Source: Myxococcota bacterium
Lineage (GTDB): Bacteria > Myxococcota > Kuafuiibacteriia > Kuafuiibacteriales > Kuafuiibacteriaceae
NCBI GenBank assembly: GCA_028289325.1
Contig: JANQQN010000241.1
Location: 1-37,176, forward strand
Direction of reading: 5' to 3'
Length of the DNA stretch: 37,176 nucleotides
In this document: positions 3,361 to 35,982 of the stretch, piece by piece
Layout: each line of letters opens with the position of its first letter
Numbering within the stretch: the first letter of the stretch is position 1
Notes under the pieces: model-generated
Told to the model about the DNA's origin: nothing
The model's database searches: none
Seen by the model: only the letters and a program-made list of their open reading frames with translations
Translations under genes and position numbers: made by a program

Positions 3361-4395
3361 TCAAAATCGTGTTGTGACCGACAGGCTGCGTCCCGTGAAC
3401 CAGAGTTCGACCCCGCCTCCGCCCGGCTCGTGCTCCGAGTCCGGGTCGGAACTCGTAGAGGCTCCTGTCTCGTCGCCGGACAACGCAAAATACAACGAGA
3501 AGCCAGCGGCAACAACGGCGGACCCTATGAGCACATCTGTAGCGATGCCGAGCTCTTGCGCACGGTTGTCTTCACGAGCGAACTCTTCGGCATCAACGGG
3601 GACATCAGCCCGCGCGTCGTCGCGACGGTTGCTGGCCTGAAGTGCCAATACACCGGTGACCGCGGCGGCCGCGGTGAGCGCCCCCGTGAGCCCCAGACTC
3701 ACCAGTAGGGGTGTATTGGCTTCCGTGCTGACTTCGTCGCCTCTACCGACAACGCTCTCCGGCGCGGCCGGCAGCTCGGTCTTGGTAGAAGCGAGGGGCA
3801 GCAGGTCAATGGTGATGATTCGAGTGTCGCCGCCGGCGACTTCGATACGTCGGCTTGCAGCGACGTGCAAGGGGTGACTGAAATCGATGCGATGGCGCCC
3901 GATATTGACGAGGACCGCCCGCTTCAGCGGCGACTCGCCGACCAATACGTCATCGATGCGAATCTCGGTGCCGGGCGGTCGAGCGTCGATCTTTAGCCGC
4001 GCCGTCCGGCCAGCGAGCGTTCGCATTTGAGCCCTCACTTCTTTTCTCGTCTTGCGATCCACTCTTTTGCCGCCGTCCCGAAGAAACCGGCGAAACGCGC
4101 GCAGCGCTTTTGCATAGTCCCGAAGAGCGAGATGACACGTCGCGATGTTGTATAGAATCTGGAAGTGAGGCGCCGTCACGTATGCTCGCCGAAACTCCAC
4201 AAGCGCGGCGGGGTAGTCTTCCTCGTAGTAGAGCTCGACCGCTCTATCGAAGTGCGAACGAGCTGTTCGAACCTTCTCCGAAGATGGCTTCTGAACGCGG
4301 GGTGCGGAATCCTGAGCGAAGGCCGGACGGTTCGTCGCCGCAACTGTCGCTGAACACGCCACGCAGACGAACACCATACGTATCATCGCGATCAT
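3361..4395 (-). CDS. TPR and PEGA-domain membrane protein
   Basis: 344 residues. Signal peptide 1-27 (cut after AFA). TPR-like helices at about 45-108 ('YNIATCHLALRDYAKAL'). A PEGA domain at about 132-200 ('ARPPGTEIRIDDVLVGESPL' followed by beta strands). Hydrophobic segments at about 229-253 and 283-306, then a short polar tail. This layout is widespread in Myxococcota and usually lies beside Pkn-type kinases. The start ATG overlaps the stop of the kinase gene (ATGA, 4392-4395), so the two are probably translationally coupled. It is likely an envelope scaffold or sensor working with the kinase. The partner relation is inferred from the operon and from the PEGA-like fold seen in both. Confidence 0.85.
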   Translation of the reverse strand: MIAMIRMVFVCVACSATVAATNRPAFAQDSAPRVQKPSSEKVRTARSHFDRAVELYYEEDYPAALVEFRRAYVTAPHFQILYNIATCHLALRDYAKALRAFRRFLRDGGKRVDRKTRKEVRAQMRTLAGRTARLKIDARPPGTEIRIDDVLVGESPLKRAVLVNIGRHRIDFSHPLHVAASRRIEVAGGDTRIITIDLLPLASTKTELPAAPESVVGRGDEVSTEANTPLLVSLGLTGALTAAAAVTGVLALQASNRRDDARADVPVDAEEFAREDNRAQELGIATDVLIGSAVVAAGFSLYFALSGDETGASTSSDPDSEHEPGGGGVELWFTGRSLSVTTRF

Positions 4396-6134
4396 TCGTC
4401 TTCCTCTTTATCATATGGTGTCGGCTGAAGTTTGCGCCCCGTACGCTCTTCGCCTCCTGACCAGTCTATCGAATCGAATATCTTCCGACGCCGGGGCTTG
4501 GGCCGCTCGCGTTGGGCGGCCGTTCCCTCCTGTTGGTCAGGCCGAGACGGAGAGGACGGCTCGGGCGGATCCGGGACCGAGTCCGGCGCTTGTCTTTGCA
4601 GCTCGATGTCCAAATCGAGGTCCTTAACGAATACGACTCGTAGGGTCCTCGGCTCGTAGCCGTCGGCTCGGGCGGTCAGCTCATGGACCGAGGTGTCGTA
4701 CGAGCGTTTCAGTATCGCGGGATTCGACGGCAAGACTGAGTCGCCCATCGACCATTGCGCGTAGGCCGGCCGAGCCGTAACGGTGATCGTCACCTCGGTG
4801 GGCTGGGACGGGGGCGGGGGCGGGTCAGGGGGCGGCGCGGTGTCGGCGGGCTGGACTTGCTTGGGCGCCACTACGGGCGTTGGTGCCAACACGACCTCTG
4901 GTTGACGCACGAACCACCACCACGCGGCCAAGTTGCCGACCGCGAGCGTCGCAAAGAATAGAAGGGTCCAGGCGGCAAAGCGCTGACCCCGTCTGGATCT
5001 GAAGTCGTCGGCAGGTTCGGAGCGCGGCGACTCGTCGGTGCGCTCCGAAGGCACCGGCAGGGGGGGTGGCGCCCCCTCGGTGAAGCCTTCTGGATGCGCC
5101 TCGAGCCGTTTGACTTGTCGGTTCACGATAGAGCGAATCCTTTGGCGCCGATTGGCAAACAGAGCTCGGGTGAGGATCGCGATGGACGACATGCTCGTCC
5201 ACAAGTCGCCCTCTCGCCGGCAGTTATCCAGCTCGTGCTTGATCTCTAACGCGGTGTCGAAGCGATCTGTGGATTCCGTCGAAGTCGCGCGCTCGTACAG
5301 CTGAGCCAGTTCCTCGGTGATTCCATCCACATCGCGGATGCTTGGGATCTGACCCTCTCCAACGTGTCGGGCCACGTCGATATCTGCGACGCCTTGCCAC
5401 ATCCTGCGTCCCGCCATGACCTCCCAAAACATGATACCCGCCGCATAGAGATCGACCCGCCGGTCGACCTCTTGGCGCCGGAGCGTCTCGGGGGCCATAT
5501 ATCGAATCGTTCCTCTGACGCCACCGGGGCTGGTCTGGACCGAATGGCCGAAGGCCTTGGCAATGCCAAAATCCAGGATCTTCACCGACCCGTCGTACGT
5601 GATGAATATGTTGCTCGGCTTGAAATCGCGGTGGACAAGACCGAGCGGAGTCCCGTCGTAGTCGACGGCTTCGTGAGCATGGTGCAGCCCAACCAATGCT
5701 TCGCTCAGTATGGCGAGACCGATGCCTGGGTTCCAGCAGCCCGCACGGAGGGCCGCTCGGCGCAGCGCATCAAACGAGATCCCCTCCAAGTACTCCATGA
5801 TGATCACCGGCAAGGACTGATACAACTCGACGTCAAACACCTGGACGATGTTGGGATGATTCAAGCGAGCTGACAGGCGAGCCTCGTTGAAGAACATCCT
5901 CATCGAGGCTTCGTCTTCGGTCAGACTGGGCTTGATACGCTTCATCACGAGGAGCTTGCGAAAGTTGTCGAGCCCTCGAGATACGACCAGATAGACGTCC
6001 GCTGTTCCCCCCGTTCCGAGCCGCGCGATGGGTACGAATCTCCCAACGCCGGCGGACTGGGGGACGTGAGCGAAACGTCCAGAAATATCTGAATCATTCT
6101 CGGAATCTGACGCCGAGCTGAACGTAGAGCTCAC
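4392..6134 (-). CDS. Ser/Thr protein kinase with periplasmic PEGA-like domain
   Basis: 580 residues. The cytoplasmic kinase spans about 33-310: glycine loop 'GTGGTADV' (40-47), ATP-binding Lys65 in 'VMKRI', alpha-C Glu84, catalytic loop 'HRDFKPSN' (168-175, Asp170), 'DFG' (188-190) and 'APE' (214-216). All catalytic residues are present. A single transmembrane segment follows at about 387-409, then a proline-rich linker and a PEGA-like domain ('VTARPAYAQWSMGD', 'LTARADGYEPRTLRV'). The C-terminus is basic and acidic. This is the usual PknB-like transmembrane architecture, with sensing outside and phosphorylation inside. GTG is chosen as the start; a -10-like box lies six bases upstream. Sampled by hand, 5581-5640 is 52% GC, against 67% at 16081-16140. 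Confidence 0.93.
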   Translation of the reverse strand: MSSTFSSASDSENDSDISGRFAHVPQSAGVGRFVPIARLGTGGTADVYLVVSRGLDNFRKLLVMKRIKPSLTEDEASMRMFFNEARLSARLNHPNIVQVFDVELYQSLPVIIMEYLEGISFDALRRAALRAGCWNPGIGLAILSEALVGLHHAHEAVDYDGTPLGLVHRDFKPSNIFITYDGSVKILDFGIAKAFGHSVQTSPGGVRGTIRYMAPETLRRQEVDRRVDLYAAGIMFWEVMAGRRMWQGVADIDVARHVGEGQIPSIRDVDGITEELAQLYERATSTESTDRFDTALEIKHELDNCRREGDLWTSMSSIAILTRALFANRRQRIRSIVNRQVKRLEAHPEGFTEGAPPPLPVPSERTDESPRSEPADDFRSRRGQRFAAWTLLFFATLAVGNLAAWWWFVRQPEVVLAPTPVVAPKQVQPADTAPPPDPPPPPSQPTEVTITVTARPAYAQWSMGDSVLPSNPAILKRSYDTSVHELTARADGYEPRTLRVVFVKDLDLDIELQRQAPDSVPDPPEPSSPSRPDQQEGTAAQRERPKPRRRKIFDSIDWSGGEERTGRKLQPTPYDKEEDE

Positions 6135-6676: not shown

Positions 6677-7792
6677 GTGAAGTGCTTTCGAGCGTCGCTC
6701 GTCGGCCTTGCCAGCGTCGACCGTCCGAATCCGCGCTCGCAACGGCGCGAATCTGATCGCCGAGGGCTGAGCGTCGGCCTCCTCCTGTTGATCTTCACGA
6801 CCGGGGGCTGCGGACAACAGCCAGGACCGACCGCCGACGCGGAGCGTTGGCCGGCCGCCGACCGACTGTTCGATTCGGACCCGCAGTGGGTCGGCGGCGA
6901 CGGTGCGTACTCCATCGACCTGAAAGATGGCCGAATCCTGTGGCTGTTCGGCGATAGCTTCATCGCCCGAACGCCGTTCTCTCGCGCGGGCGCCGCCTTC
7001 ATCCGGAACAGCGTAGCGATCCAGAGGGGCGCGGACCCCTCGACGGCGGCCATGCGGTTCTTCTGGAATACGGGCGCCGACGACGCGCCGACCTCATTCG
7101 CGGCGGAAAAAGGAGCTTCGTGGCTGTGGCCCGCACACGGGGTGCGGCTCGGTCATCGGCTCTTATTGTTCTACGAGATCATTCGAACCCCGCCTGGACT
7201 CCCCCCCGGCGAAGACAACTTCGAAGGTATCGGCTGGACCGCTTTCGTCATCGACAACGTCGATCGCCCGCCGTCCGACTGGCACCTCGAAGAGGTTCGG
7301 GTTCCGGCCACCGGGCGATACCTTCTCGGCGAGGCGTTGCTCATCGAACCCCCGTGGCTGTACGCGTACGGGTCCGACGACGACCTGCACCCCGTAGTCC
7401 TCGCCCGCTGGCCGCTCGACGAAGTCATGGCCAAAGACCTGTCTTCGCTCGAGTGGTGGTGCGGCCAACGATGGTGTACCGAACGACCGGCCGAGCTCAT
7501 CGGGCTAGGCGCACCCGAATTGTCCGTCCACCACGACGTCGACCGCGGCCGATACCTCATGGTGCAGTCGTCGGGGGTGGGTCCGACCACGCTGTCGATC
7601 CGATCTGCGCCCCGCCCCGAGGGGCCGTGGTCCAACGCGCGCGATCTCCTCCGGCCTCCCGAGTCGTTCGACCCCGATGCCTTCGTGTATGCCGGCAAGG
7701 CGCACCCCACCCTCATCGGCGCCGACCTCGTCGCCACCTACGTCGACAGCGAACGATACTTTCCTTCTTTCGTTCGAATATGCTTTCCATGA
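6677..7792 (+). CDS. DUF4185-like beta-propeller lipoprotein
   Basis: 371 residues from GTG 6677, which has GAGGG just upstream. The open frame runs further up, but nothing there looks coding. The hydrophobic segment 'VGLLLLIFTTGGC' puts the lipidated Cys at about residue 45; the polar stretch before it is long, so the true start may be later. Residues 71-95 contain 'WVGGDGAYSIDL' and 'LWLFGDSF', the signature I associate with DUF4185 proteins, related to five-bladed glycosidase-like propellers. Later 'RYLMVQSS', 'PRPEGPWS' and 'AHPTL' match the blade motifs. The role is likely glycan or ligand binding at the surface; hydrolase activity is not shown. It overlaps the next gene by ATGA. A paralog follows at 8687. 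Confidence 0.75.
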   Translation: MKCFRASLVGLASVDRPNPRSQRRESDRRGLSVGLLLLIFTTGGCGQQPGPTADAERWPAADRLFDSDPQWVGGDGAYSIDLKDGRILWLFGDSFIARTPFSRAGAAFIRNSVAIQRGADPSTAAMRFFWNTGADDAPTSFAAEKGASWLWPAHGVRLGHRLLLFYEIIRTPPGLPPGEDNFEGIGWTAFVIDNVDRPPSDWHLEEVRVPATGRYLLGEALLIEPPWLYAYGSDDDLHPVVLARWPLDEVMAKDLSSLEWWCGQRWCTERPAELIGLGAPELSVHHDVDRGRYLMVQSSGVGPTTLSIRSAPRPEGPWSNARDLLRPPESFDPDAFVYAGKAHPTLIGADLVATYVDSERYFPSFVRICFP

Positions 7793-8700
7793 GCAGCCCG
7801 ATCACCGCCGCTCTTCTCGGGCTCGGGTTGGCCGCATCGCCCGTCCCCACCCCGCGCGAGACGTCAACCACGCGGTGGATCTCGGGGGGCACCCGGGCCA
7901 TCGCCCCGTCGTACGCCGCATCCCGTGACGCACCGTTGGTAGAGTACGCCTACGGTCCGCGGGCCCAGCTGTCGCTCGGCGGTGAGCTGGGCCTGGTCAC
8001 CATCGAACACTCGGACCGAACGTTCCGATTTGGTGGCTCTGTTCTTTTTGCATTCGAGAACGCGCGTTCGTCGAAGCCCGCGCCTACCGAGGTGTGGCGT
8101 TTCGTGGCCGCCTTGACCACGAGCGTCGATTTTCGGGGTTTTGCATCGACCCTGTTCGGCCCCGGGAGCCACCTCGAGCTGGCGCTGTCGCTCGGTCGAG
8201 CCGAAGCTCCCGCGCGCGACGAGCCCGTCGATCCGATCCAGCCAAGCGACATCCCGTTCGGCGGCGGGGGCTGGTATCTCGAGCCCGGGATCGCCTTGCG
8301 CACACCCTTGACGCTTACCTGGACCTTCGAAGCGCGCATCGCCCACCGCATGTTCACCAACGCCTTCGTCAGCCTGGTCGGGGCCTCGGACGCGGCGGAT
8401 ATCGTCGCGAGTGGGCTCGGCGAAGGACTGGCCCACGCACCCCATCTCGATGTGACCCTGCGCTGGAAGGTGCGGTCCGGGATCGAGCCGTACGTCGCGG
8501 CCTACGGCGGCTACTTGGACCCGCACGACGATAGCGCCGACGCCGGTTACTTCTTCCGAGCGCTGCTCGGGCTCGGCCTTCGGGGGGAGGGCGGCCTTGT
8601 CGCGCCCTTCGTCAGCCTGGACGCCGGCAACGGGCAGGGATTGCTGATCAACCGCAGAGAGCTGCGGTTATCGGTGGGCATCCGCTATGCGTGGCGGTGA
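7789..8700 (+). CDS. Predicted outer-membrane beta-barrel protein
   Basis: 303 residues. The start ATG overlaps the stop of the upstream gene (ATGA, 7789-7792); an in-frame ATG at 7780 is the alternative. A signal peptide ends near 'GLAASP'. The rest is a series of amphipathic strands with Gly and aromatic residues ('VEYAYGPRAQLSLGGELGLV', 'GGGGWYLEPGIAL', 'YVAAYGGYLD'), closing with 'RLSVGIRYAWR'. That is typical of small outer-membrane barrels, although the last residue is Arg rather than Phe. No named family recognised. It is sandwiched between two paralogous lipoproteins with overlapping reading frames, so it probably forms an envelope complex with them, perhaps as their outer-membrane anchor or channel. 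Confidence 0.7.
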   Translation: MSSPITAALLGLGLAASPVPTPRETSTTRWISGGTRAIAPSYAASRDAPLVEYAYGPRAQLSLGGELGLVTIEHSDRTFRFGGSVLFAFENARSSKPAPTEVWRFVAALTTSVDFRGFASTLFGPGSHLELALSLGRAEAPARDEPVDPIQPSDIPFGGGGWYLEPGIALRTPLTLTWTFEARIAHRMFTNAFVSLVGASDAADIVASGLGEGLAHAPHLDVTLRWKVRSGIEPYVAAYGGYLDPHDDSADAGYFFRALLGLGLRGEGGLVAPFVSLDAGNGQGLLINRRELRLSVGIRYAWR

Positions 8701-9712
8701 CGTCAAAGGGTGGTGGGCGGTCATCGGGATGACCGCCATCAGCGCGTGCGCTTGGCCTCTGGAAGACGAGGCGCCGCGCCTCGACCTCGATCCGCCCCCG
8801 CTCGCCGGAGGATGTGGATTGGCCACCCGCGACGGGGCCGTGCTGCACGGCGTCGTGCGAAGCCTCGCGAACGGCGACCAGACGACCTGGACTGCGGCCT
8901 CGGACGAGACTGGACGTCGAGACCTGCTGATGACCGGGGCGCCGGGCCCGACGTGTGAAAGTACGCTCGACGCCGCCGACGCGCCTCTCGTCGCCGCATC
9001 GAGCACCGTGGCCCGAGCCGCACTCGACTTCGCGATCATCGATGGCGGGGCGATCGCGTACTTCGTCGAAGGCCCGCCGGATCCCGTCTTCGGCGTCCGG
9101 CCGGAAGCGCTGGGCGTTGCGTACGGCGAAGACCTGACGAGTCTCACTCCGTTCGCCGAACGCCTATGGACCGCGGACCGTCCCCCGTACGGGACCAGCG
9201 TCGTCGTCGACGAGACCTACGTCTATGCGTTCGGGTGCTTGGCGGCCCGATTCCTGGACGCCGACTGCTACGCGGCGCGCGTCGAGAAGAGCCAAGTCGG
9301 TCGCCGTAGCGCGTACACGTACTGGGCGGGCAGCGAGCGCTGGGTCGCCGATCCGGACCGCGCGTTTCCGGTGGTCACCGGCGGCACGCATATCAGCGTG
9401 GTCTACCATCCGGGCCGTGCCCGGTACATCATGGCCTACAGCCAACCGCTCGCCGACCGAATCGTCCTTCGCGTCGGCTTCGGTCCCGTGGGCCCTTGGT
9501 CCGCGCCGTTCGAGATCGGGCGCTGCGAACCACCGGCCGACGATCCCGACGCGTTCTGCACCGGGGTAGAGCTCCACCCCAGCGTCGTCCAAGACGACGA
9601 CCGCATCGCGGTCACTTACGCGCTGGGATCGTTTTCTGACCAGGCGATCAGCAACCCCGCCGCGTACCGAACTCGGCTGGCGGTCGTATCGTTGCCGGCC
9701 GAACTCCCTTGA
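8687..9712 (+). CDS. Second DUF4185-like lipoprotein, paralog of the first
   Basis: 341 residues. The ATG lies 14 bases inside the end of the barrel gene. Lipobox I-S-A-C with lipidated Cys21. The C-terminal half matches the gene at 6677 block by block: 'RARYIMAYSQ' against 'RGRYLMVQSS', 'GPVGPWS' against 'RPEGPWS', 'DDPDAFC' against 'FDPDAFV', and 'ELHPSV' against 'KAHPTL'. The N-terminal half is more divergent and lacks the 'LWLFGD' signature, so it may bind a different ligand. It has more Cys residues than its paralog, which may form disulfides. Co-expression with the barrel and the first paralog is implied by the overlaps. Confidence 0.7.
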   Translation: MRGGDVKGWWAVIGMTAISACAWPLEDEAPRLDLDPPPLAGGCGLATRDGAVLHGVVRSLANGDQTTWTAASDETGRRDLLMTGAPGPTCESTLDAADAPLVAASSTVARAALDFAIIDGGAIAYFVEGPPDPVFGVRPEALGVAYGEDLTSLTPFAERLWTADRPPYGTSVVVDETYVYAFGCLAARFLDADCYAARVEKSQVGRRSAYTYWAGSERWVADPDRAFPVVTGGTHISVVYHPGRARYIMAYSQPLADRIVLRVGFGPVGPWSAPFEIGRCEPPADDPDAFCTGVELHPSVVQDDDRIAVTYALGSFSDQAISNPAAYRTRLAVVSLPAELP

Positions 9713-9756: not shown

Positions 9757-10046
9757 GTGACGAATCTGGATGCCATGGCCGTCTTCGCTGCCGTCGTAAA
9801 ACCGGCAGCTTCACCGCGGCCGCACGCCAGCTGGGGGTGAGCAAGCAGAGCGTCAGCGACCAGATCGCGCGACTGGAAGACCGCCTCGGCGCGCGGCTCC
9901 TGGAACGAACGACCCGCAAGATGCGGCCAACCGAGGTGGGCGAGCGGTACAATGAGTACTGTGCCGCGATCGTCGAGCAGGCCGAGGCCGCGCAGCGAAT
10001 GGTCGTCGAGGGTCTACACGCTTGGCGACGAACACGAACACCGTAG
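9757..10046 (+). pseudogene. LysR-family regulator remnant (frameshifted and truncated)
   Basis: The first frame reads 'MTNLDAMAVFAAVV', the start of a LysR DNA-binding domain. At the run AAAA (9798-9801) one base is missing relative to the family. Shifting frame gives 'TGSFTAAARQLGVSKQSVS' and the recognition helix through 'LGARLLERTTRKMRPTEVG'. Read unshifted, the frame stops at about 9840. The shifted frame ends at 10046, just after the linker helix, so the whole roughly 200-residue effector-binding domain is missing. Two independent lesions mean a pseudogene, although the frameshift alone could be a sequencing error in a homopolymer. Confidence 0.85.
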
Positions 10047-10073: not shown

Positions 10074-10559
10074 TCAAGGGTCCTCGTTGAATGCGGCCTC
10101 GAGGTCGGCGACCACGATCTTCTTCATCTTCATCATCGCCTCGAACACCCGGCTCGTAGCTTTCGAATCGCCGGTCGATGTCAACCGTACCAACGCCTCA
10201 GGAACCACCTGCCACGAAACGCCGAAGCGATCCGTGAGCCACCCACACATGCTCTCGCGACCGCCGTCAGCCAGCAGGCCGCTCCAGATCCGGTCGGTCG
10301 CCGCCTGGTCGGGGGTGACGAGGTGAATCGATGCCGCCTCGCTGTGGGTGAAGTGAGGCTGGTCCGGGCCGACGTCCAGGATCATATACGGTGTTCCCGA
10401 GAGCCGGAAGTTGATGATGGTCACCGCGCCTTCGGCGCCGGGGCCGGACACGCGCTCGATCCGACTGTTGGGAACCAGCGAAACATACAGCTCGGCCGCT
10501 GCTTCTCCTTGCGCGTTGAACCACAGACACGTGCGTACATCCCATGGCGATGGCGTCAT
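10074..10559 (-). CDS. PhnB-like VOC-family protein
   Basis: 161 residues. Start at 'MTPSPWDV', with AAGGAG eight bases upstream; the frame upstream has no support. The sequence carries the PhnB / '3-demethylubiquinone methyltransferase-like' signatures: 'CLWFNAQGEAAAELYVSLVP' early, 'FTHSEAASIHL' in the middle and 'CGWLTDRFGVSWQVVP' late. These are metal-binding-fold VOC proteins whose substrates are mostly unknown. The start overlaps the stop of the sigma-factor gene (TGATG), so translation is probably coupled. It is the last gene of a three-gene unit, VOC, ECF sigma, VOC. Confidence 0.88.
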   Translation of the reverse strand: MTPSPWDVRTCLWFNAQGEAAAELYVSLVPNSRIERVSGPGAEGAVTIINFRLSGTPYMILDVGPDQPHFTHSEAASIHLVTPDQAATDRIWSGLLADGGRESMCGWLTDRFGVSWQVVPEALVRLTSTGDSKATSRVFEAMMKMKKIVVADLEAAFNEDP

Positions 10560-11560
10560 CACGATCTCCTTTGTTCGCCCCCCGCGGGGGGAAGGTCGTC
10601 GAGCGCAAAACCGAATCGCGGAAAGAGCGTCTCGACGTCGAGGAAGTAGGTCATGCTCGCGACGGCATCGTCGCTCAGCTCGAGGACCACCAGCGACCAC
10701 GGATGAAACCCGCCGGCGGGATCCGCCCGGTACTGCGCGAAGGCCGGAGCCCCGCTGGCCTGGGTCGGAATAAGGCGCGAGCCTCGGCATCCGATCCCCG
10801 GTCCGAGCAGCCACGCCGCGATGTCCTCGCGTCCTCGCAGCCACAGGGCGTAAGGCGGCATGCTCATGGTCACGTCTTCCTTGAGCAGGGTAACCAGACG
10901 CTCCACGTCGTAGGCGTGAAACGCATCGACATATCGATCGAGCAACTGTTCTTGCGCTCTGGTTAGGCGGTGTCCGCTCTCGTCAGGCTCGGGCGCGGAC
11001 GGCGCCGGCGGCTGCATGGTGGCCCGCGCCCGCTGCAGGGCCGAGTTCACCGCCGCCACGGTAAGTTCGAGGGTCTCCGCGATCTCGGCGGCCGAGAAGC
11101 CGAGGACGTCTTTGAGCAGCAGCACCGCCCGCTGCCGGGGCGGCAAGCGCTGAAGGGCCGCGACGAAGGCCAGTCGCACGCTCTGCCGCAGGCTGGTCAC
11201 CTCGGACGGCTCCGCTTCCCGGGGCAGCACGGCCGCGTCGGGGACGGGCTCGAGCCAGTGGGTACGGGGACGGGTCGTCAACGGGTCTTGGACCGTTCCC
11301 GCCGCACCCTCGTCGATCGGCAGCACGCGCCGCGACCGCTGGTTCAGCGCGTCGAGACACACCCGGGTCGCGATCCGATGGAGCCAAGTCTTTGCAGATG
11401 CACGGCCTTCGAATCCCGAGAGCCCGCGAAGGGCGCGGATGTACGTTTCTTGGACCGCGTCGTCGGCGTCGGCGACGGACCCAAGCATTCGGTAACAGTG
11501 TCCGGTGAGCGCGGCGCGATGCGTTTCGAGATCGACGGCCGTGGGCGCGACATCGTTCAT
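10559..11560 (-). CDS. ECF sigma factor with C-terminal SnoaL-like domain
   Basis: 333 residues. Sigma region 2 at about 10-75 ('[17 protein letters not shown]', '[16 protein letters not shown]'). Region 4 at about 123-182 ('[18 protein letters not shown]', '[18 protein letters not shown]'). The rest, about 203-320, is a SnoaL/NTF2-like domain ('[20 protein letters not shown]', '[13 protein letters not shown]'). This is the SigG / TIGR02960-type ECF layout, in which the fused C-terminal domain is thought to control the sigma factor in place of a separate anti-sigma factor. No anti-sigma gene is nearby. One base separates its ATG from the stop of the upstream VOC gene. Confidence 0.92.
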
Positions 11561-27426: not shown

Positions 27427-30400
27427 TTACTGCGGGCTGGGCACCTCGGCGATGCGATTGAATTTGCGGACCTGATCGATGTAACCGACCCGCTCGTTGA
27501 GCGCGGAGCGGGCGAGCTCGTAGGCCCGGCACGCGTCGGCCTGGGTCGCCCATCGGTTGCCGTCCTCGGTGAGCGGTCCCACCGCCGTCCCTTCTTCGCA
27601 GCCGGCCCTCGCCGGTTCGTACGCCTCGGCCACGAACGCGTTCGCCGCGTCGAGCAGATTGGCCCCCACCCCCCAGTTCCGATACTGGGGCGGGTCCTGG
27701 TTCTGATGCCACCGGTCGCCGTAATACGCCGGAAAGTCCTGCAAGAAGCCCGTCTCGGACACGGGGGGAATGACCGGGGCTCGATAGGTGATCAGCGTTT
27801 CGGGGTCGGTAAAGGTGGTGATGGTCATGTCGGGCGGGTACTCGACGTCTTCCGGAGTGCCCAAGATGGAAATCTTCGTGAATCGATACATCTCCGGCGC
27901 GTAGTCTTGGACCGACGACCAGTTGCCGAGGCTGTAGGCCAGCGCCTGGTACTGTAGGGTCCAGCTCCACGACGGCTCGATCTCCGGGAACTGGGTGAGC
28001 CACTCGCGCACCGACGAACCGTCTTCTCGCGCCTCGTCGAACAGGGGCATGTACCGAACGTAGCGTTCCTGGGTCGTGGGGTCGGTCACCACGTGGGAGC
28101 GATAGCCGGTGTGGTCACCCTCGATGAGCGACGCGAACCGCTGCAGCATGGGGTCGAGATACACCCGCAGGTATCCCAACGAGAACGACCGTCGATCGAA
28201 TACGTCACTGAAGTCCCGCACGAATCGCCCTGACGACGTGGTCATCTGCTGAATGACAGCCAGCTTGTCGTAATAGAACCCGATGACGTTCGGCTCGTAA
28301 AAGTAGTCGTCGCTCCAGAAGCTCTCCAGATAGTAGCCGCCGCCGAACCCGAGAGGGACGTCGTACGGCTGCGCGCAGGCCCCTTCCCCCGCATATCTCC
28401 GATAGATGTTGGCATCGATATCGAGACAATACCGCCCTGGCTCGGGAGCCTGAAGCACCCGCTCCAAGAAGTTCACCCCCCGGTACGCGGCTTCCGCCCA
28501 GTCTTCGTAGAGATCGGCCTCGAACGCCGACCGACGAGTAAACAGGTAGTACCGGAACATGTTGGTCATGTGGAACAGTCGCCGACCCTGGAGCCGAGAG
28601 ACGTACTGTCTCGGGTCTCCCCAGGTGTCTTTGAGCCGGTCCCGCCGAAAGTGATTGAACACGTAGTCGCGGTCGAAGCGATTGATGTGGTTCTGGATGG
28701 CCTCTTCGAAATCCCAGCCCGTGTCGAAGCGCTGGCAGAACGGATTCGCGAAGTCGGCGTACAGATCCGAGCAGTACGCGTGTCTGACCGGATATTGGTA
28801 ACTGGACCAGTCGAAGCCCTTGTCGTCGACGATCCCGTCGCCGTCGGAGTCCACGCCGTCGGCCGACTCATCGATCCCCGTCGACAGGTCGTCGTATTCC
28901 GGTAAGGACAGCAATACATCGCGTTGCTGGCGAACGAGGAAGTCGGTGGACACGAACTTCCGGGCCCCGTTCAGGTTCCTCGGCCTCGGCTCCAGTTGCT
29001 TGATCTGGGCCAATAGCCAGTTGACGTCGTCGAAGAAGATCGAGCATCCGCTCGCCCCGTTGCGTTGGGACGAGCTTTCGAAGCGGGCTACGAACTGGCG
29101 GTACAGGTCGTCCATGGCCGAATCGCAGGAGGGGTTGCCGTCGTACCCTCCGGCGCAGGCCGCCTGATCCACGGCCGGCTGGGAGAGGATCCGGGGCATG
29201 TGCTCGGGGCCCATCCACTGCAACACCGAAGGGAGCCCCCAAAAACTGTCGCTGTGTCCGCACCGGCGGGCGAAGGTCCCGTACTTTCGAGGGTCGGGGA
29301 TGGACACCGCCTCCCCGTCCCAGACTTCCTGAATCTGTCCGTACTGAAAGCGAATCGCCGCTTCGTCGTACGTCCCGATCCCGTGAAACCCGTTGAGAGG
29401 CACGTCGAAGGCGTAGTCCATGACCGACGCGTACTTGAACTCGTTGCCTCGGGTCTTGTTCTGCTCGCTGGGCGGGTCGGCCCAGTGCTGGACGGCGGTC
29501 TCCGCGCCGCACTCGGTCGCCCCTTCCGGACACGACCACCAAAAGTCCGGTTTGTAGTTGAGCGGGTCCATCGAGGACTCGAAGTTGTGGCGAAGGCCGA
29601 CGGTGTGGCCAACCTCGTGGGCACCGACGGCCTTGAACATCTCTTCGCGCACGAGGGCGAAGATGTCTTCTCGCGACCAGCCCTTGACCGCCTCCGCGAG
29701 CCCCGACGAGTTGGGATCGAAGAAGTCGGCCATATCCACGGCGTTGCGACCCAGCTCGTACGCCGACCGGAGGAATTCGTTGGAATCCGGGGTGGTGCCC
29801 CAATTGACGACCGACGCCGCCTCGAACGCTTCGGGGCTCACTTGGCCGGGGGCCAGGTCGACCAAGCCCTGGCTCGGATCCAGACCGGGTGGGGAGATGG
29901 CCCCGAAGGGCTGAAAGAGCGTAGGGCCCGCGAACCCTCGGAGCATCTCTTCGGTGACCAGGTACTCCCGTTCGATGTCCGTGCCTCGCCACATCTCGGC
30001 GAATCGGCGCTCCTGTCCCCCGATGGGAGCGTCGTCGAACAGAGGGCCGCCATTTTGGGCGATGAGGCGGTCCTCGTGGCTCATCAGCAGGCCTCGGACC
30101 TGGGACCGGATTCCGTTGTTCTGCATCGTGCGCCGAGACACGATCTCCCGCCGAGTGATGTCGCCCCGGAACAGCTCTTCTTCGTCGAGGTCTCCGTTGA
30201 GCCACTGCAGAACGTCGACCTCTCGCTGGGCGATCTGATCCCCGGCGTTGCCGAAGTAGTTCGCGATGTTCCCACCGATGAACTCGCCGGTCTCCGGATC
30301 TTGAGCGAACTGCGCGATCCCCAGGGGCCCCTGAATGTTCTCATCGATGTAATTCAGGAAGTTGTATCGAAGATCGCCCAGCCGTTGCCAGGTAAACGCG

Positions 30401-31929
30401 AGCTCGACCCCGTCTCGCTCCGCGATCTTCGGGTCGAGGGTCTTGCCCTGCTGAAGCTCGGCGAACTGTACCGCCGCGCAGACCTGCTCGACGTTCCCTT
30501 TCGCCACCCGTCCGGTGTCGGCCACCACTCGCGCTACGACGTCGGACAGCCCGTTAGCCTCCGCGTAGGCGGTGATGCCGGCCGGATTGCAGTCGTTGAC
30601 CGCGAACTGGAACATGCCGCCTCCGACCTCGGATCGCACGCGTTCAACGCTGGACAACAATTGCGAACGACGGACGCCAGTCCCGCTCTGCAGCGCGTCC
30701 TCGTGGTACTTCAACATCGCTACCGTCTCGTCGAACGGTATCGACCACGATTCGGCCATCTCGGTCGCGCTGTCCACCAGGTCCTCGGGGAAGGTCGTGT
30801 TGCCGTAGAAGACGATCGGCTCCGCCTCGCGGCCCGCGTAGGGGATCCGTTCGGAGCCCGCGAAGGAGTCTCGCCACAGGTCGTACCGCCCGGCCAGGTA
30901 GATGCGGCCGGTCCGGGTAAGGAACCGCTCGCGGTCGAACGCGACGCGGAGGGTCCGGAAGTTGCCGTACGCCCCGTCGTAATCCCAGGTTTGAATCGTG
31001 CACTCGCTCGGGTCCCGAGCGCCCTCACACGGCCGCCCCTCGAAGTTGAGGACGATCGCGCGGCCGTCGTCATCCTTCAGTTCAACGACGTCGGGATAAT
31101 ACAACGACTCGTAGTCGTCGTCGGGGTCGATCCGCTGAAACGACAGGCGCACCTTCGCGTTCGCGGCCCCGCATCGCCCCGCGCCCTGCGCGAGCTGCAT
31201 CATCAAGCAGATGTACTCCGACGGTTCCAGGCTATAGACGTTCGTGACGTCGAAGTAGTCCTCGGTGAAGAACGGGCGGTCGGGATTCGTCTCTTCGTTG
31301 CCCTGGACGTAGAACTTCACCGCCGCCTGACCGCTGAGCGTTCCGCTTGGATAGTTGTTGAAGCCGATGGTGAACGCGGTGTTCTGGCGGACCAGGTTCT
31401 CGGACCAGTCGACACGAAAGTATCGTCGCTCGTTCCACGGCCGATCGGTGGTGTTCTCGGAGATGACGTTGGTTTCGACCCCGGTGGTTCGGTTGTACTC
31501 CCTTTGAATGTCGAAGTGGCTCTCGATCGGAAAAGCCGCGACCGGGGCGCCGAAGAAGTCTTCGCCTTCCTCGGTCAAGCCCTCCGCGTAGGGCAGAAAC
31601 TCGAAGGAGCGATAGGCGATCAGCAGGTCTTCGGTGATCTCCCAGCGGATCTTCTCCGTCGTCGACACCACACCTTCGAACACCGTCGAGACCCCGAAGA
31701 AGCCGACGTACTGGGGGCTGTCGGGGTCCGCCTCCACCACCGTCGCGCGATGATACCATAGGCCCGAGAACATCTCTTTGGGCAGCGCGTTGGGCTGCGT
31801 GCGGTCGATACTGCGAACCTCCACCGAACACCCCGCGGCCACTACGACAACGAGCAACGAGACCACACCGACCGAGGACGAAGCCTTCGAAAGTAGCATT
31901 GACACGATCGCTTTCATCGAGGACCTCAT
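27427..31929 (-). CDS. Giant lipoprotein zinc metalloprotease (met-zincin), copy 1
   Basis: 1500 residues from ATG 31929, which overlaps the stop of copy 2 (ATGA). The N-terminal signal segment ends VAAGC, so it is probably a lipoprotein. The active site 'HEVGHTVGLRH' places zinc ligands at His771, His775 and His781 and the general base at Glu772. The Met-turn is 'ASVMDY' with Met837. Together these define a metzincin of the DUF5117/DUF4953-like type. The N-terminal 150 residues match copy 2 ('FPIESHFDIQREY', 'ISENTTDRPWNERRYFRVD'). Near residue 1025 is a calcium-loop-like 'DSDGDGIVDD'. It probably cleaves proteins or peptidoglycan-linked peptides at the cell surface; the substrate is unknown. 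Confidence 0.88.
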   Translation of the reverse strand: MRSSMKAIVSMLLSKASSSVGVVSLLVVVVAAGCSVEVRSIDRTQPNALPKEMFSGLWYHRATVVEADPDSPQYVGFFGVSTVFEGVVSTTEKIRWEITEDLLIAYRSFEFLPYAEGLTEEGEDFFGAPVAAFPIESHFDIQREYNRTTGVETNVISENTTDRPWNERRYFRVDWSENLVRQNTAFTIGFNNYPSGTLSGQAAVKFYVQGNEETNPDRPFFTEDYFDVTNVYSLEPSEYICLMMQLAQGAGRCGAANAKVRLSFQRIDPDDDYESLYYPDVVELKDDDGRAIVLNFEGRPCEGARDPSECTIQTWDYDGAYGNFRTLRVAFDRERFLTRTGRIYLAGRYDLWRDSFAGSERIPYAGREAEPIVFYGNTTFPEDLVDSATEMAESWSIPFDETVAMLKYHEDALQSGTGVRRSQLLSSVERVRSEVGGGMFQFAVNDCNPAGITAYAEANGLSDVVARVVADTGRVAKGNVEQVCAAVQFAELQQGKTLDPKIAERDGVELAFTWQRLGDLRYNFLNYIDENIQGPLGIAQFAQDPETGEFIGGNIANYFGNAGDQIAQREVDVLQWLNGDLDEEELFRGDITRREIVSRRTMQNNGIRSQVRGLLMSHEDRLIAQNGGPLFDDAPIGGQERRFAEMWRGTDIEREYLVTEEMLRGFAGPTLFQPFGAISPPGLDPSQGLVDLAPGQVSPEAFEAASVVNWGTTPDSNEFLRSAYELGRNAVDMADFFDPNSSGLAEAVKGWSREDIFALVREEMFKAVGAHEVGHTVGLRHNFESSMDPLNYKPDFWWSCPEGATECGAETAVQHWADPPSEQNKTRGNEFKYASVMDYAFDVPLNGFHGIGTYDEAAIRFQYGQIQEVWDGEAVSIPDPRKYGTFARRCGHSDSFWGLPSVLQWMGPEHMPRILSQPAVDQAACAGGYDGNPSCDSAMDDLYRQFVARFESSSQRNGASGCSIFFDDVNWLLAQIKQLEPRPRNLNGARKFVSTDFLVRQQRDVLLSLPEYDDLSTGIDESADGVDSDGDGIVDDKGFDWSSYQYPVRHAYCSDLYADFANPFCQRFDTGWDFEEAIQNHINRFDRDYVFNHFRRDRLKDTWGDPRQYVSRLQGRRLFHMTNMFRYYLFTRRSAFEADLYEDWAEAAYRGVNFLERVLQAPEPGRYCLDIDANIYRRYAGEGACAQPYDVPLGFGGGYYLESFWSDDYFYEPNVIGFYYDKLAVIQQMTTSSGRFVRDFSDVFDRRSFSLGYLRVYLDPMLQRFASLIEGDHTGYRSHVVTDPTTQERYVRYMPLFDEAREDGSSVREWLTQFPEIEPSWSWTLQYQALAYSLGNWSSVQDYAPEMYRFTKISILGTPEDVEYPPDMTITTFTDPETLITYRAPVIPPVSETGFLQDFPAYYGDRWHQNQDPPQYRNWGVGANLLDAANAFVAEAYEPARAGCEEGTAVGPLTEDGNRWATQADACRAYELARSALNERVGYIDQVRKFNRIAEVPSPQ

Positions 31930-34900
31930 CGGTTGTGGTAGACGCGGTAAAGATCGCGTGCGTACTCGAGCAGCTCCACCCGGCCGCGCCAATAGTCCTT
32001 GAAGTCAGGATTCGAGTCTGACGCCTCGTACTCCAGGCGCGCTTGCTCCGCGCTTTCGATCATCTGACAACCCATGCTGGCCTCGGCCGGTGACCGCTGG
32101 ACGCTGCGGTACTCGACGCCGACGAGCGTATCGACCATCGCGCAGTAGCAGTCTTCGCCGTCGGCGGCGACCGTACAGCTGGGCAAGCTCGCCCAGTCTT
32201 CAAAGTCGTCGTCGGCCCCGCGCACGAACACCTTGAGCTCTTTGCCCATGTCGACCTGCGCGTCGAAGTCCGAGGAAAACAGGGCGTGGGCGTAATACAT
32301 CGCGCTGAAGGGAATGTTGGCGAGGATGGTCGGGTACAGCACGGAAGGTTGGGTACAGGTGGCGCTGGCCCCCGGGAACGGCTCGAGGGTGTCGAGATCG
32401 ATCATCCGCCGGGGCTCGAAGTATCCGAGATGAGGTAACCCCGGCGCATCCGGCGACCGACACCAAAACGATCCCAGCTCGTCGGCGGTCTGCGACCGGA
32501 TGAAGAAGCTGTCGTAGCTCATGACCCGGCCGAAGAACTCTCGCAGCTCGGGTTCGAATAGCCGGTATTGGCTGACGTACTTGTTACGAAGGTCGAGATC
32601 GTAGTTGAACCGAAGCAGCCGGGGCCGGGTCGTTCCCAGCCGGCGCAACAGCGCTTCCTTGTCGAAGAACGAGCCCACGAACGCCCAGTCGTAGTCTTCG
32701 TAGTCTTCGGTGAAGCCCAGCGACGCCGGTCGACCGTCGCCGAGTCCGAGTTCGATCATCCCTCGCGTCGTCGCGTAGCTGCTGTCGATGGGGGCGTAAT
32801 CGTCGCAGTCATTCAGGTTGGCGGACGGCAGATAGCGGCTGGGGTTCGACGTCCACTGGCACATTCGACCCGGCTCCGGGGTGGCCATGACCTCGGTGGC
32901 CAGATTGAGGCTGTGCCCGAGCACCGCGGCCATGTCGTCACGCAGAAAGGACGACGCGAACGGGTCGCGAGGGTCGCTCTGAGCGTGAACGGTCATGATG
33001 TAAAAGTATTGGGCCACGACGTCGCTGAAGTCGCCCACGAACGCGAGGGGGGCGAGCGCGGAATTGGGGTCCCAGGCGCTGGGAACGATGCGATCGCGGA
33101 CGAAGTTGTTGAAGAAGAAGTAGTCCTGCCACATCGACTTGTAGTTCATGAAAACCTCGGTCAACGACGCGCCGAAGTCTCGGGTCGCGCAGAACGGGGT
33201 CATCCGGTCGAATCTGTTGTCGCAGAACAGGTACGGCACCTCGTTCGGCGGTGGGTTCTGAGGATCGAACGTGACCCACCGGCGATCGCCGATCACCGCT
33301 CGCGCCTCCTCGGGGCTGGCGCACGTCCCGCCGCATAGATGATTGGGCAAGGTTCGGTAGTCGTTGAGGTATCGCCACGACCGAAGGGCCTCTCCTCCCG
33401 CCGCCTGCACGGCCGGGCTGTCGAACACCTCGACCTGCTGTCCATACGCGAATCGGATCGCGGCCTGGTCGTACCGCCCCAGAAAGTCCGCGAACAGACC
33501 TTTGCTCGACAGATACTCCATGACCGTCGAGTGCCTCTCCTCGTCGACTTGAGACTGGATGCGCCGCTGATCGTAGACCGCGCGAACGGTGGGGTCGCTG
33601 CAGTCGGGGACGTCCACCCCGTCGACGCAGGAGTTGTTCCAGAACTTCAGGCTGTAATTGAGCGCGTCGAACGATCCCTCGAAGTTATGGGTGAGGCCCA
33701 CGTCGTGTCCGACTTCGTGCAGGAACACGTGGGCGAGCAATCGGTTGGCGATGATCTCGTAGCGGGCGGCCGGTTCGACGTCGCGCAGGTTGAAGGCCAG
33801 GCCCGCCCAGTGCGGGTCGAAGTCGGCCTCGACGAAGCACAGCCCCGCGTCGCCGAATGCCGCGCGGGCCCGCTCCAGGTGGGCGGAAAACGGGCTCTGC
33901 TCCGATGCTCGACCCCATGGTGCGGCTCGGTCCCACAGCTCGTCGGTAACCGCCATCCCCGGTCGCCACTGTCCGAACCCGGCCAGGGCGAGGTCGAACT
34001 CGGTGACCAGCTGTTCTTCGGCGCGGGTTCCTTTCACGCGCTCCATACGATTCTTCAAATGGTCGGGGTTGCGCAGCTCCACGAGCTTGTCGTCTCGACT
34101 GACGCCCAGACTGGCGATCCGAGCGTCGAGCCGATCCGCGAGCTTGGCTCCGCTGCCGCCACCAGCCTGAAGCTCCTGGCGTCGTCGGGCGAGGGTCGCC
34201 TCGATGTGCTGTCGGATCTGTTGGCCGTAAACGACATCGGTGGTGGTTTGCTCGTCGTTGATCAGGGCGATGTAGTCGTTCACCCGGGACGCCTGCAGCT
34301 CGTAATAGTGTCCTCGAACGTACGCGGTCCCGGAGATCACTTCCCCCGTCCGAGCGTCCGCGTTCGAGATCCCCAGGCCGCCCCAACCGCTGGCCTGCGG
34401 GTTGTTGAGAAACATCAGCATGTTGTGGCGAAGGTCCCCCAACCGCTGCCACTCGAACCGCGACTTCCCGGTGTCCGGATCCCGGGTGGCGGCCTCGAGC
34501 GAAGTGCACACCCTCTTGAGATTTCCGATGCCGACGTGCTCGCCCATGTTTTCGAGAGTGACCGCGCACGCTTCCCCTTCGGCGCACACCGCTCGCTCGA
34601 CGGCGAAGAACAGGTCGGGCTCTTCGCTCACGAAGTCGATCACGTTCTGCTCGTTGCAGTCGTTGACCCGCAGCTGGAACATGGCCGGGATGGCGTCGGT
34701 CGTGGTTCCCATCAGGTCGGCCACCATCGACGAGAAGACCCGGTTGTACTCGGCGGCGGTCGTCTCCGCCGCCGCCATCCATCGCATCGGATACTCGACG
34801 TTCAGGTACCAGGTCATGGGCTTCGGCGTTCGCTCGGCGTACGGGAGGGGCATACCGGTCGCCGGGTCCGTCGAGCGCTCCCACAGGTCGTAGAGGCGGG

Positions 34901-35888
34901 CTCGAAACAGGCGCCCGCTCTCCGTGTAGCCGTAGCCACGGTCGTAGGTCGGCAACTCCAACCGAAAGAAGCCGAACCGTCCGTAGATGTTCTCGCGCAC
35001 CACTTCCCCGGTCTCGGGATCGAAGACCGTTTGACCGTCTTCGTCGGTCTGAACGACCGCGTCGGGATAGTCACGAGGGAGAAAGTCGGACGCCTCGGTG
35101 ATGCGCAGGAAGCTGTGCCGAACCTTGGCTTCCCCGAAACCGCAGTTGCCGACCCCGGCCAGGCTGAACCCCACGAACGCGGCGCACGTGAACACGTCGC
35201 TGCCGATCATCACGTTGTCGGTAATCTCGACGTAGTCGCTCGAGAATCGGGACGCGAAGGGGTCGGTGGGGCGAGTGTCGAGGTTGCTCCAGTAGCTGCC
35301 CGTGGATAGCAGGCGAATGGGGAACCAGGTCAGCGCATAGTCGCCGTACAGCGTGTTGTCCTCGATCAGGTTGCTGGAGAAATCCACGCGCATGTACCGT
35401 CGGTCGTACCAGGGGCGGTCCGCGGTGTTCTCATCGATGACGTTGGTGACTCGATTCGTCAGCGAGTCGTACCCTCGCTGGATGTCGAAGTGGGACTCGA
35501 TGGGCCATGCGGCGACGACCGGTCCTTTGTAGAACGTGTTTCCTTCGAAGGTTTGGGTGCCGGCGCCGGGGATACTCTCGTCGGCCTTGTACGCCAGGAG
35601 CACGTTTTCCTGAATCTCGAACCGGATCCGCTCGACGGTCCAGTCGCCGAGGCCTTCGATCGCGTAGGCGTTGGTGGTTTCTGCTTCGACGAGGGTGCGG
35701 CGGTAGTACCACTCGTCATCGGCGGCGAAGATCGCCTTATCGACGAATCCGGGTTGGACGAGGTTGATGTCGTCATTCCGCGGCGCACAGGCCGGCCCGA
35801 CGACCCCCGCCAGCAGCGCGATGACCGCTCCCGTGGGCACCGCGGCCTTCACCACCGGGTAGGTCGTCGTCGTCGAAAGATGAGTCAT
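31926..35888 (-). CDS. Giant lipoprotein zinc metalloprotease (met-zincin), copy 2
   Basis: 1320 residues from ATG 35888; the frame continues upstream but has no start with support, and a TATACT box lies 11 bases before this ATG. The signal segment ends GPAC, a non-standard lipobox. The zinc motif is 'HEVGHDVGLTH' with His724, Glu725, His728 and His734, and the Met-turn is 'STVMEY' with Met790, so the site looks catalytically complete. N-terminal blocks 'WPIESHFDIQRGY' and 'IDENTADRPWYDRRYMRVD' are shared with copy 1. Several Cys residues in the C-terminal half suggest disulfides. It is the first gene of the leftward run and divergent from the CBM9-like lipoprotein. Confidence 0.88.
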   Translation of the reverse strand: MTHLSTTTTYPVVKAAVPTGAVIALLAGVVGPACAPRNDDINLVQPGFVDKAIFAADDEWYYRRTLVEAETTNAYAIEGLGDWTVERIRFEIQENVLLAYKADESIPGAGTQTFEGNTFYKGPVVAAWPIESHFDIQRGYDSLTNRVTNVIDENTADRPWYDRRYMRVDFSSNLIEDNTLYGDYALTWFPIRLLSTGSYWSNLDTRPTDPFASRFSSDYVEITDNVMIGSDVFTCAAFVGFSLAGVGNCGFGEAKVRHSFLRITEASDFLPRDYPDAVVQTDEDGQTVFDPETGEVVRENIYGRFGFFRLELPTYDRGYGYTESGRLFRARLYDLWERSTDPATGMPLPYAERTPKPMTWYLNVEYPMRWMAAAETTAAEYNRVFSSMVADLMGTTTDAIPAMFQLRVNDCNEQNVIDFVSEEPDLFFAVERAVCAEGEACAVTLENMGEHVGIGNLKRVCTSLEAATRDPDTGKSRFEWQRLGDLRHNMLMFLNNPQASGWGGLGISNADARTGEVISGTAYVRGHYYELQASRVNDYIALINDEQTTTDVVYGQQIRQHIEATLARRRQELQAGGGSGAKLADRLDARIASLGVSRDDKLVELRNPDHLKNRMERVKGTRAEEQLVTEFDLALAGFGQWRPGMAVTDELWDRAAPWGRASEQSPFSAHLERARAAFGDAGLCFVEADFDPHWAGLAFNLRDVEPAARYEIIANRLLAHVFLHEVGHDVGLTHNFEGSFDALNYSLKFWNNSCVDGVDVPDCSDPTVRAVYDQRRIQSQVDEERHSTVMEYLSSKGLFADFLGRYDQAAIRFAYGQQVEVFDSPAVQAAGGEALRSWRYLNDYRTLPNHLCGGTCASPEEARAVIGDRRWVTFDPQNPPPNEVPYLFCDNRFDRMTPFCATRDFGASLTEVFMNYKSMWQDYFFFNNFVRDRIVPSAWDPNSALAPLAFVGDFSDVVAQYFYIMTVHAQSDPRDPFASSFLRDDMAAVLGHSLNLATEVMATPEPGRMCQWTSNPSRYLPSANLNDCDDYAPIDSSYATTRGMIELGLGDGRPASLGFTEDYEDYDWAFVGSFFDKEALLRRLGTTRPRLLRFNYDLDLRNKYVSQYRLFEPELREFFGRVMSYDSFFIRSQTADELGSFWCRSPDAPGLPHLGYFEPRRMIDLDTLEPFPGASATCTQPSVLYPTILANIPFSAMYYAHALFSSDFDAQVDMGKELKVFVRGADDDFEDWASLPSCTVAADGEDCYCAMVDTLVGVEYRSVQRSPAEASMGCQMIESAEQARLEYEASDSNPDFKDYWRGRVELLEYARDLYRVYHNR

Positions 35889-35899
35889 GGCGCTCGGCC

Positions 35900-35905
35900 A
35901 GTATA
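35900..35905 (-). promoter_or_regulatory. -10 element of the met-zincin operon
   Basis: Minus strand TATACT inside GGCTATACTGG, identical to the box at 2485. It ends 11 bases before the ATG at 35888, so the leader would be only about 4-5 bases. The -35 is unclear; GTGACG lies 19 bases upstream. Confidence 0.5.
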
Positions 35906-35942
35906 GCCGGGGCCGGTTGACCAGCGTCACCGCAGCCCCCCG

Positions 35943-35982
35943 TTTACGAATCGACGTGGACCGGTATTTTACGGACACCGGT
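35943..35982 (+). promoter_or_regulatory. Promoter with paired ACCGGT sites before the CBM9 lipoprotein
   Basis: TTTACG (35943-35948), 16 bases, TATTTT (35965-35970). The palindrome ACCGGT occurs at 35960-35965, touching the -10, and again at 35977-35982, at about the expected start site. The centres are 17 bases apart. This placement would suit an operator. AGGG six bases before the ATG (36006) can serve as the ribosome-binding site. Confidence 0.35.

Follow-up and report, generated by a model that had tools for sequence, protein, structure and literature searches.

The window, which is the whole 37,176-nucleotide stretch of DNA analysed here and belongs to an 8.9-Mb assembly of 587 contigs, harbors three overlapping genes on the forward strand, and these are listed in Table 1 together with the other features observed. 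For this locus, the families, the conservation and loss of residues, a barrel model, and the conserved gene order and overlaps were computed. The three ORFs were found at coordinates that reproduce the overlaps described in the initial annotation, and the ATGA shared by genes 1 and 2 is a predicted site of translational coupling. An alternative in-frame ATG for gene 2 at position 7780 would add three codons to the protein.

Table 1. Features of the three-gene locus and of its surroundings, with the gene found upstream of related operons.
Feature	Sequence	Position	Strand	Description
Gene 1	Window	6677..7792	+	Probable lipoprotein, GH183-like (DUF4185), predicted active; GTG start at 6677 uncertain
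Genes 1/2 junction	Window	7789..7792	+	ATGA stop/start, 4-base overlap
Gene 2	Window	7789..8700	+	Outer-membrane beta-barrel, predicted to have 12 strands and a signal peptide
Genes 2/3 junction	Window	8687..8700	+	14-base overlap
Gene 3	Window	8687..9712	+	Probable lipoprotein, DUF4185/GH183 fold, lacking both catalytic aspartates
Kinase gene	Window	4392-6134	-	Encodes a serine/threonine protein kinase; oriented divergently to the operon
LysR-type gene	Window	9757-10045		LysR-type regulator, first part; frameshift near 9800
ECF sigma gene	Window	10559-11560	-	ECF sigma factor carrying a SnoaL-like domain at its C-terminus
Long ORFs	Window	27427-35978	-	Pair of very long ORFs, one after the other (1521 aa, 1350 aa)
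Upstream gene	L089	3657-5924		Lipoprotein-like
Upstream gene	L094	3754-5967		Lipoprotein-like
Upstream gene	L096	1-1497		Lipoprotein-like

The two outer genes encode related proteins. The motifs ascribed to both of them (RYLM/RYIM, GPWS, DPDAF and HPT/HPS) do align, and the alignment of gene 1 with gene 3 gives 27% identity over 149 residues (E 9e-9). The HMM search that the initial annotation had proposed for PF13810 yielded matches for both proteins in a Pfam scan, with 57.5 bits for gene 1 and 57.7 bits for gene 3 against a cut-off of 39.5, and a DUF4185 search of the source genome returned no match beyond these two genes. The lipoprotein signals were likewise recovered, as each protein has a hydrophobic N-terminus running up to a cysteine that is invariant in nine homologues and is followed, in the window, by Gly and Ala. 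Genes 1 and 3 are thus probably lipoproteins, and their presumed lipidation is the firmest of the functional assignments made here.

DUF4185 proteins were characterised in two papers of 2023 as retaining endo-D-arabinofuranases, now CAZy family GH183, and these first members cut the D-arabinan of mycobacterial walls (PMC10115798, PMC10509167). In EndoMA1 (8HHV), a five-bladed propeller, D33 is the nucleophile, D51 the acid/base and E243 a third essential carboxylate, with Arg198 holding the sugars at subsites -2/-3 (PMC10509167). Because DUF4185 is GH183, with a solved structure, gene 1 is predicted to be an enzyme and more than a capture protein. A DUF4185 profile built around gene 1 retrieved 8HHV with an E-value of 2.5e-27. 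In the profile alignment, the FGD aspartate of gene 1 (D93) is aligned with D51 and E281 with E243, and the 18 residues between D75 and D93 reproduce the spacing of D33 and D51. D75, D93, E281, H238 and the lipobox C45 are invariant in nine orthologues, and the GGDGAYSxDL...LWxFGD motif is invariant or nearly so across these nine diverged proteins; the LWLFGD signature, as had been noted, is present in gene 1 and absent from gene 3.

Other features set gene 1 apart from the enzymes described. The aligned loop YGSDDDLHPVV contains no arginine at the place of Arg198, a residue of EndoMA1 specificity that lies outside the GH183 family definition, and the invariant H238 sits in this loop, near that place. 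Identity with M. xanthus-type and L052-type DUF4185 proteins is only about 18–20%. Profile comparison also revealed that the N-terminal blade of gene 1 resembles the DUF5005 protein BACOVA_04882 (4HBS, a putative hydrolase) as well as gene 1 resembles EndoMA1; DUF5005 was rejected as the family of gene 1, with PF16396 under its cut-off (E 5e-6). Since the carboxylates are invariant, the Arg198 counterpart is absent and 4HBS is similarly close, gene 1 is predicted to be a GH183-type glycosidase, and its substrate may be something other than D-arabinan.

Gene 3 belongs to the same fold and differs at the catalytic site. Its profile retrieved EndoMA1 (8HHV/8IC1, E 3e-15), and Foldseek placed 8IC1 and 8HHV at the top of the matches to its AlphaFold2 model (E 1e-12 and 3e-12), followed by 4HBS, M. 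tuberculosis AraH2 and GH62/GH43 propellers. The mean pLDDT of this model is 62.7 with a weak N-terminal half, so that neither the blade count nor the site geometry is readable from it. Under three MAFFT settings, both catalytic columns were devoid of aspartate in all nine gene-3 proteins, and in the same alignments both aspartates were kept in five complete stand-alone relatives from other Myxococcota. The gene-3 ORFs are intact in nine genomes and share 33 invariant columns, indicating that the gene is kept and not decaying; the lipobox C21 and C43, C90, C280 and C291 are invariant across the nine proteins. From these substitutions, gene 3 is a putative conserved pseudoenzyme, a member of the GH183 fold and not a GH183 enzyme. 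In a second Myxococcota DUF4185 clade (L053, L054, L056, L057 and L063), both aspartates are kept and the position of E243 is occupied by Ile, Met or Val, which suggests a different specificity in that subfamily.

A maximum-likelihood tree with long branches recovered the gene-3 proteins as one group (100/99) within a branch that includes the stand-alone relatives, and set gene 1 apart from this branch (99/100). Because gene 3 is grouped apart from gene 1, in another DUF4185 branch, its origin from a recent tandem duplication of gene 1 is unlikely. The outer copies, earlier taken to have diverged, are not simple diverged duplicates, given their separate branches and the loss of both aspartates in nine of nine gene-3 proteins. 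It might be argued that neither propeller is an enzyme and that the two lipoproteins flank a barrel in order to bind or sense a ligand, the residues of gene 1 being ancestral leftovers. The missing Arg198 and a propeller without a catalytic site are in line with that explanation; however, the invariance or near-invariance of D75, D93, E281 and the GGDGAYSxDL...LWxFGD motif in nine orthologues is hard to explain without catalysis, and we consider it improbable. Of the earlier interpretation, the two DUF4185 lipoproteins, the barrel between them and the operon are supported; gene 1, as a predicted GH183 enzyme, would do more than capture a glycan or ligand.

The middle gene had been described as a barrel with no named family, and both parts of that description were supported. 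No match was obtained against Pfam or NCBIfam (hmmscan, no family at E ≤ 10), and no relative was detected among PDB sequences. The AlphaFold2 model, based on nine homologues, has a pLDDT of 82 and a pTM of 0.78 and consists of an N-terminal helix and 12 strands, 11 of them 12–14 residues in length and one of 5, so the proposed prediction and modelling gave a barrel and not a soluble protein. The modelled barrel spans 306 residues and has no room for a plug. In each of the 12 strands, the two faces differed in hydrophobicity by more than the mean of two propeller controls, and in nine strands by more than the 90th percentiles of both controls. With a signal peptide and 12 strands in the model, gene 2 is predicted to encode an outer-membrane beta-barrel. 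Its Foldseek neighbours were KdgM and the mid-size outer-membrane channels and enzymes OmpG, FapF, the COG4313 channel (4RL8) and OMPLA, these last four with E-values from 3e-5 to 1e-3; as the TM scores reach only 0.4–0.5 and no sequence match accompanies them, gene 2 is called a barrel and is given no family. A DUF1207 barrel was unsupported, with no PF06727 match in the genome at E ≤ 10, though control genomes gave none either.

The conservation of the gene order was first surveyed in 195 genomes of the phylum, where a search with the gene-2 profile detected no second copy of gene 2. In three of these genomes (G091, G127 and G172), gene-1 orthologues stand alone, although in G091 the contig runs on for only about 220 bases past the gene. 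A search of genome contigs with gene 2 alone as the query also gave no match. This survey favored an unconserved order, and that conclusion was overturned by a gene-1 family scan of 84,980 species genomes, from which 292 relatives were obtained and 80 kept. The records of these relatives come from Myxococcales, Acidobacteria, Planctomycetota, Verrucomicrobia, Chloroflexi and others. Homologues of genes 2 and 3 were located directly downstream of gene 1, in the same order, at eight of the 80 loci (L081, L082, L084, L089, L093, L094, L095 and L096, all MAGs); seven of these records are named Myxococcales or Polyangiaceae, and L093 Proteobacteria. The search for the same order in other genomes, as had been proposed, thus gives nine genomes with the window included, nearly all of them Myxococcota. 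Genes 1 and 2 overlap by 1–10 bases in the eight other operons, with start codons chosen by eye, and genes 2 and 3 by 11–17 bases. Identity to the window ranges from 42 to 50% for gene 1, 30 to 38% for gene 2 and 31 to 37% for gene 3, and such low values indicate that the arrangement has been held over a long divergence. With the trio recurring in this order in eight further genomes, the operon is more than chance.

One could suppose that the three genes are coupled for expression only, as a stand-alone glycosidase, an unrelated porin and a drifting paralogue, and at 72 of 80 loci the gene-1 subfamily is indeed solitary. Genes 2 and 3, however, occur in exactly the same eight of the 80 gene-1 loci, and neither was encountered without the other or without gene 1, in a scan that was seeded on gene 1 and that copies of genes 2 and 3 without gene 1 could escape. 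With the overlaps also retained across a large divergence, we give this explanation little credence.

The neighbourhoods were inspected for clues to the substrate. Beside the operon, neither a sugar transporter nor any genes for glycan utilisation could be recognised, and GH172 had no match in the source genome, nor in the control. Lone gene-1 loci (L111, L118, L130, L135, L138, L143 and others) share a delta-proteobacterial neighbourhood with genes for CheD, HDOD, TetR, a phosphatidylglycerol lysyltransferase (LPG synthase) and an esterase, and also with 3D-domain, butirosin-H-like and ADP-ribosylglycohydrolase genes; this conserved neighbourhood names no pathway and was set aside as a substrate clue. 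A kinase gene adjoins the operon in the window and, in the same direction and directly upstream, in L082; the kinase was not retained as a general partner, and its position is probably a coincidence in kinase-rich genomes. In four operons (L089, L094, L096 and L095), a lipoprotein-like gene (SCGKGDPDENFRLWSNNEAGWEEMQ...) was observed directly upstream, with no Pfam match in the three proteins scanned. In the window, the operon is closely followed by the LysR-type frame (MTNLDAMAVFAAVVK...), which resumes after the frameshift as KTGSFTAAARQLGVSKQSVSDQIARLEDRL... and stops after about 95 residues, and this broken gene is either a pseudogene or an assembly error. The frame just downstream of the ECF sigma gene, on the same strand, has a PhnB-type look by eye, and the two long ORFs lie further along the window.

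The main rival to a module acting on external glycans is that it remodels a surface glycan of its own cell, such as O-antigen, capsule or exopolysaccharide, with the barrel as a secretion or scaffold part. This would accord with a lone gene-1 subfamily that is spread over many phyla, mostly Gram-negative, without D-arabinan-utilisation neighbours, and with the D-arabinofuranose motifs reported in a few LPS structures and in the pili of P. aeruginosa PA7 (Al-Jourani et al., PMC10115798). However, no glycosyltransferase or export genes were recognised among the typed neighbours of the operons, which are a minority of the flanking genes, and we regard own-glycan remodelling as rather unlikely.

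The reading we prefer, tentatively and at slightly less than an even chance, is that this translationally coupled operon encodes a surface glycan-processing module made up of an enzyme, its dead twin and a barrel. Gene 1 would be a GH183-fold lipoprotein anchored in the outer membrane that cleaves a furanose-containing polysaccharide by a retaining mechanism with two aspartates, D75 as the nucleophile and D93 as the acid/base. Gene 3 would be a dead-site propeller lipoprotein that probably holds or presents the glycan, or else serves as a structural partner, and the 12-stranded, plug-less barrel of gene 2 may anchor the pair and/or pass the released oligosaccharides. The lipidation, the surface-facing side, the association of the three proteins in a physical complex, their division of labour and the substrate are what we infer.

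Compared with the GH183 endo-D-arabinofuranases (EndoMA1, 8HHV/8IC1; DgGH4185a/b; Rv3707c; MyxoGH4185), gene 1 shares the fold family, the Pfam model and the three carboxylates, but it is distant, with similarity at the profile level, and lacks the arginine at the Arg198 place. Gene 1 is further distinguished as a probable lipoprotein coupled to a barrel and a dead paralogue. In the SusCDE-type polysaccharide utilisation loci of Bacteroidota, surface lipoproteins cut and hold glycan beside an outer-membrane barrel, and the present operon is alike in placing candidate glycan lipoproteins next to such a barrel. In contrast to SusCDE, a plug-less barrel of about 12 strands and 300 residues is combined with propellers of the GH183 fold in place of SusD, and the operon has neither transporter nor regulator; no SusC or SusD Pfam match was found in genes 1–3. 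A more specific version, possible though doubtful, is an undescribed type of surface glycan-foraging complex, in which a catalytically active lipoprotein of the GH183 fold and a dead twin sit on a dedicated outer-membrane barrel of a new family as a compact, plug-less counterpart of SusCDE, acting on a furanose glycan that may not be D-arabinan.

The biochemistry of DUF4185 is already known, and what is added here is the conserved order and the consistent split between predicted active and dead members. The operon reveals a GH183-like lipoprotein subfamily that is divergent, occurs widely across Gram-negative phyla and, in certain Myxococcota, goes together with a dead paralogue and a barrel of its own. 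Should the three genes form a working surface module, they would offer a clear example of a glycosidase paired with its own pseudoenzyme, add a new barrel family, and extend the designs of glycan foraging beyond SusCD-type systems.
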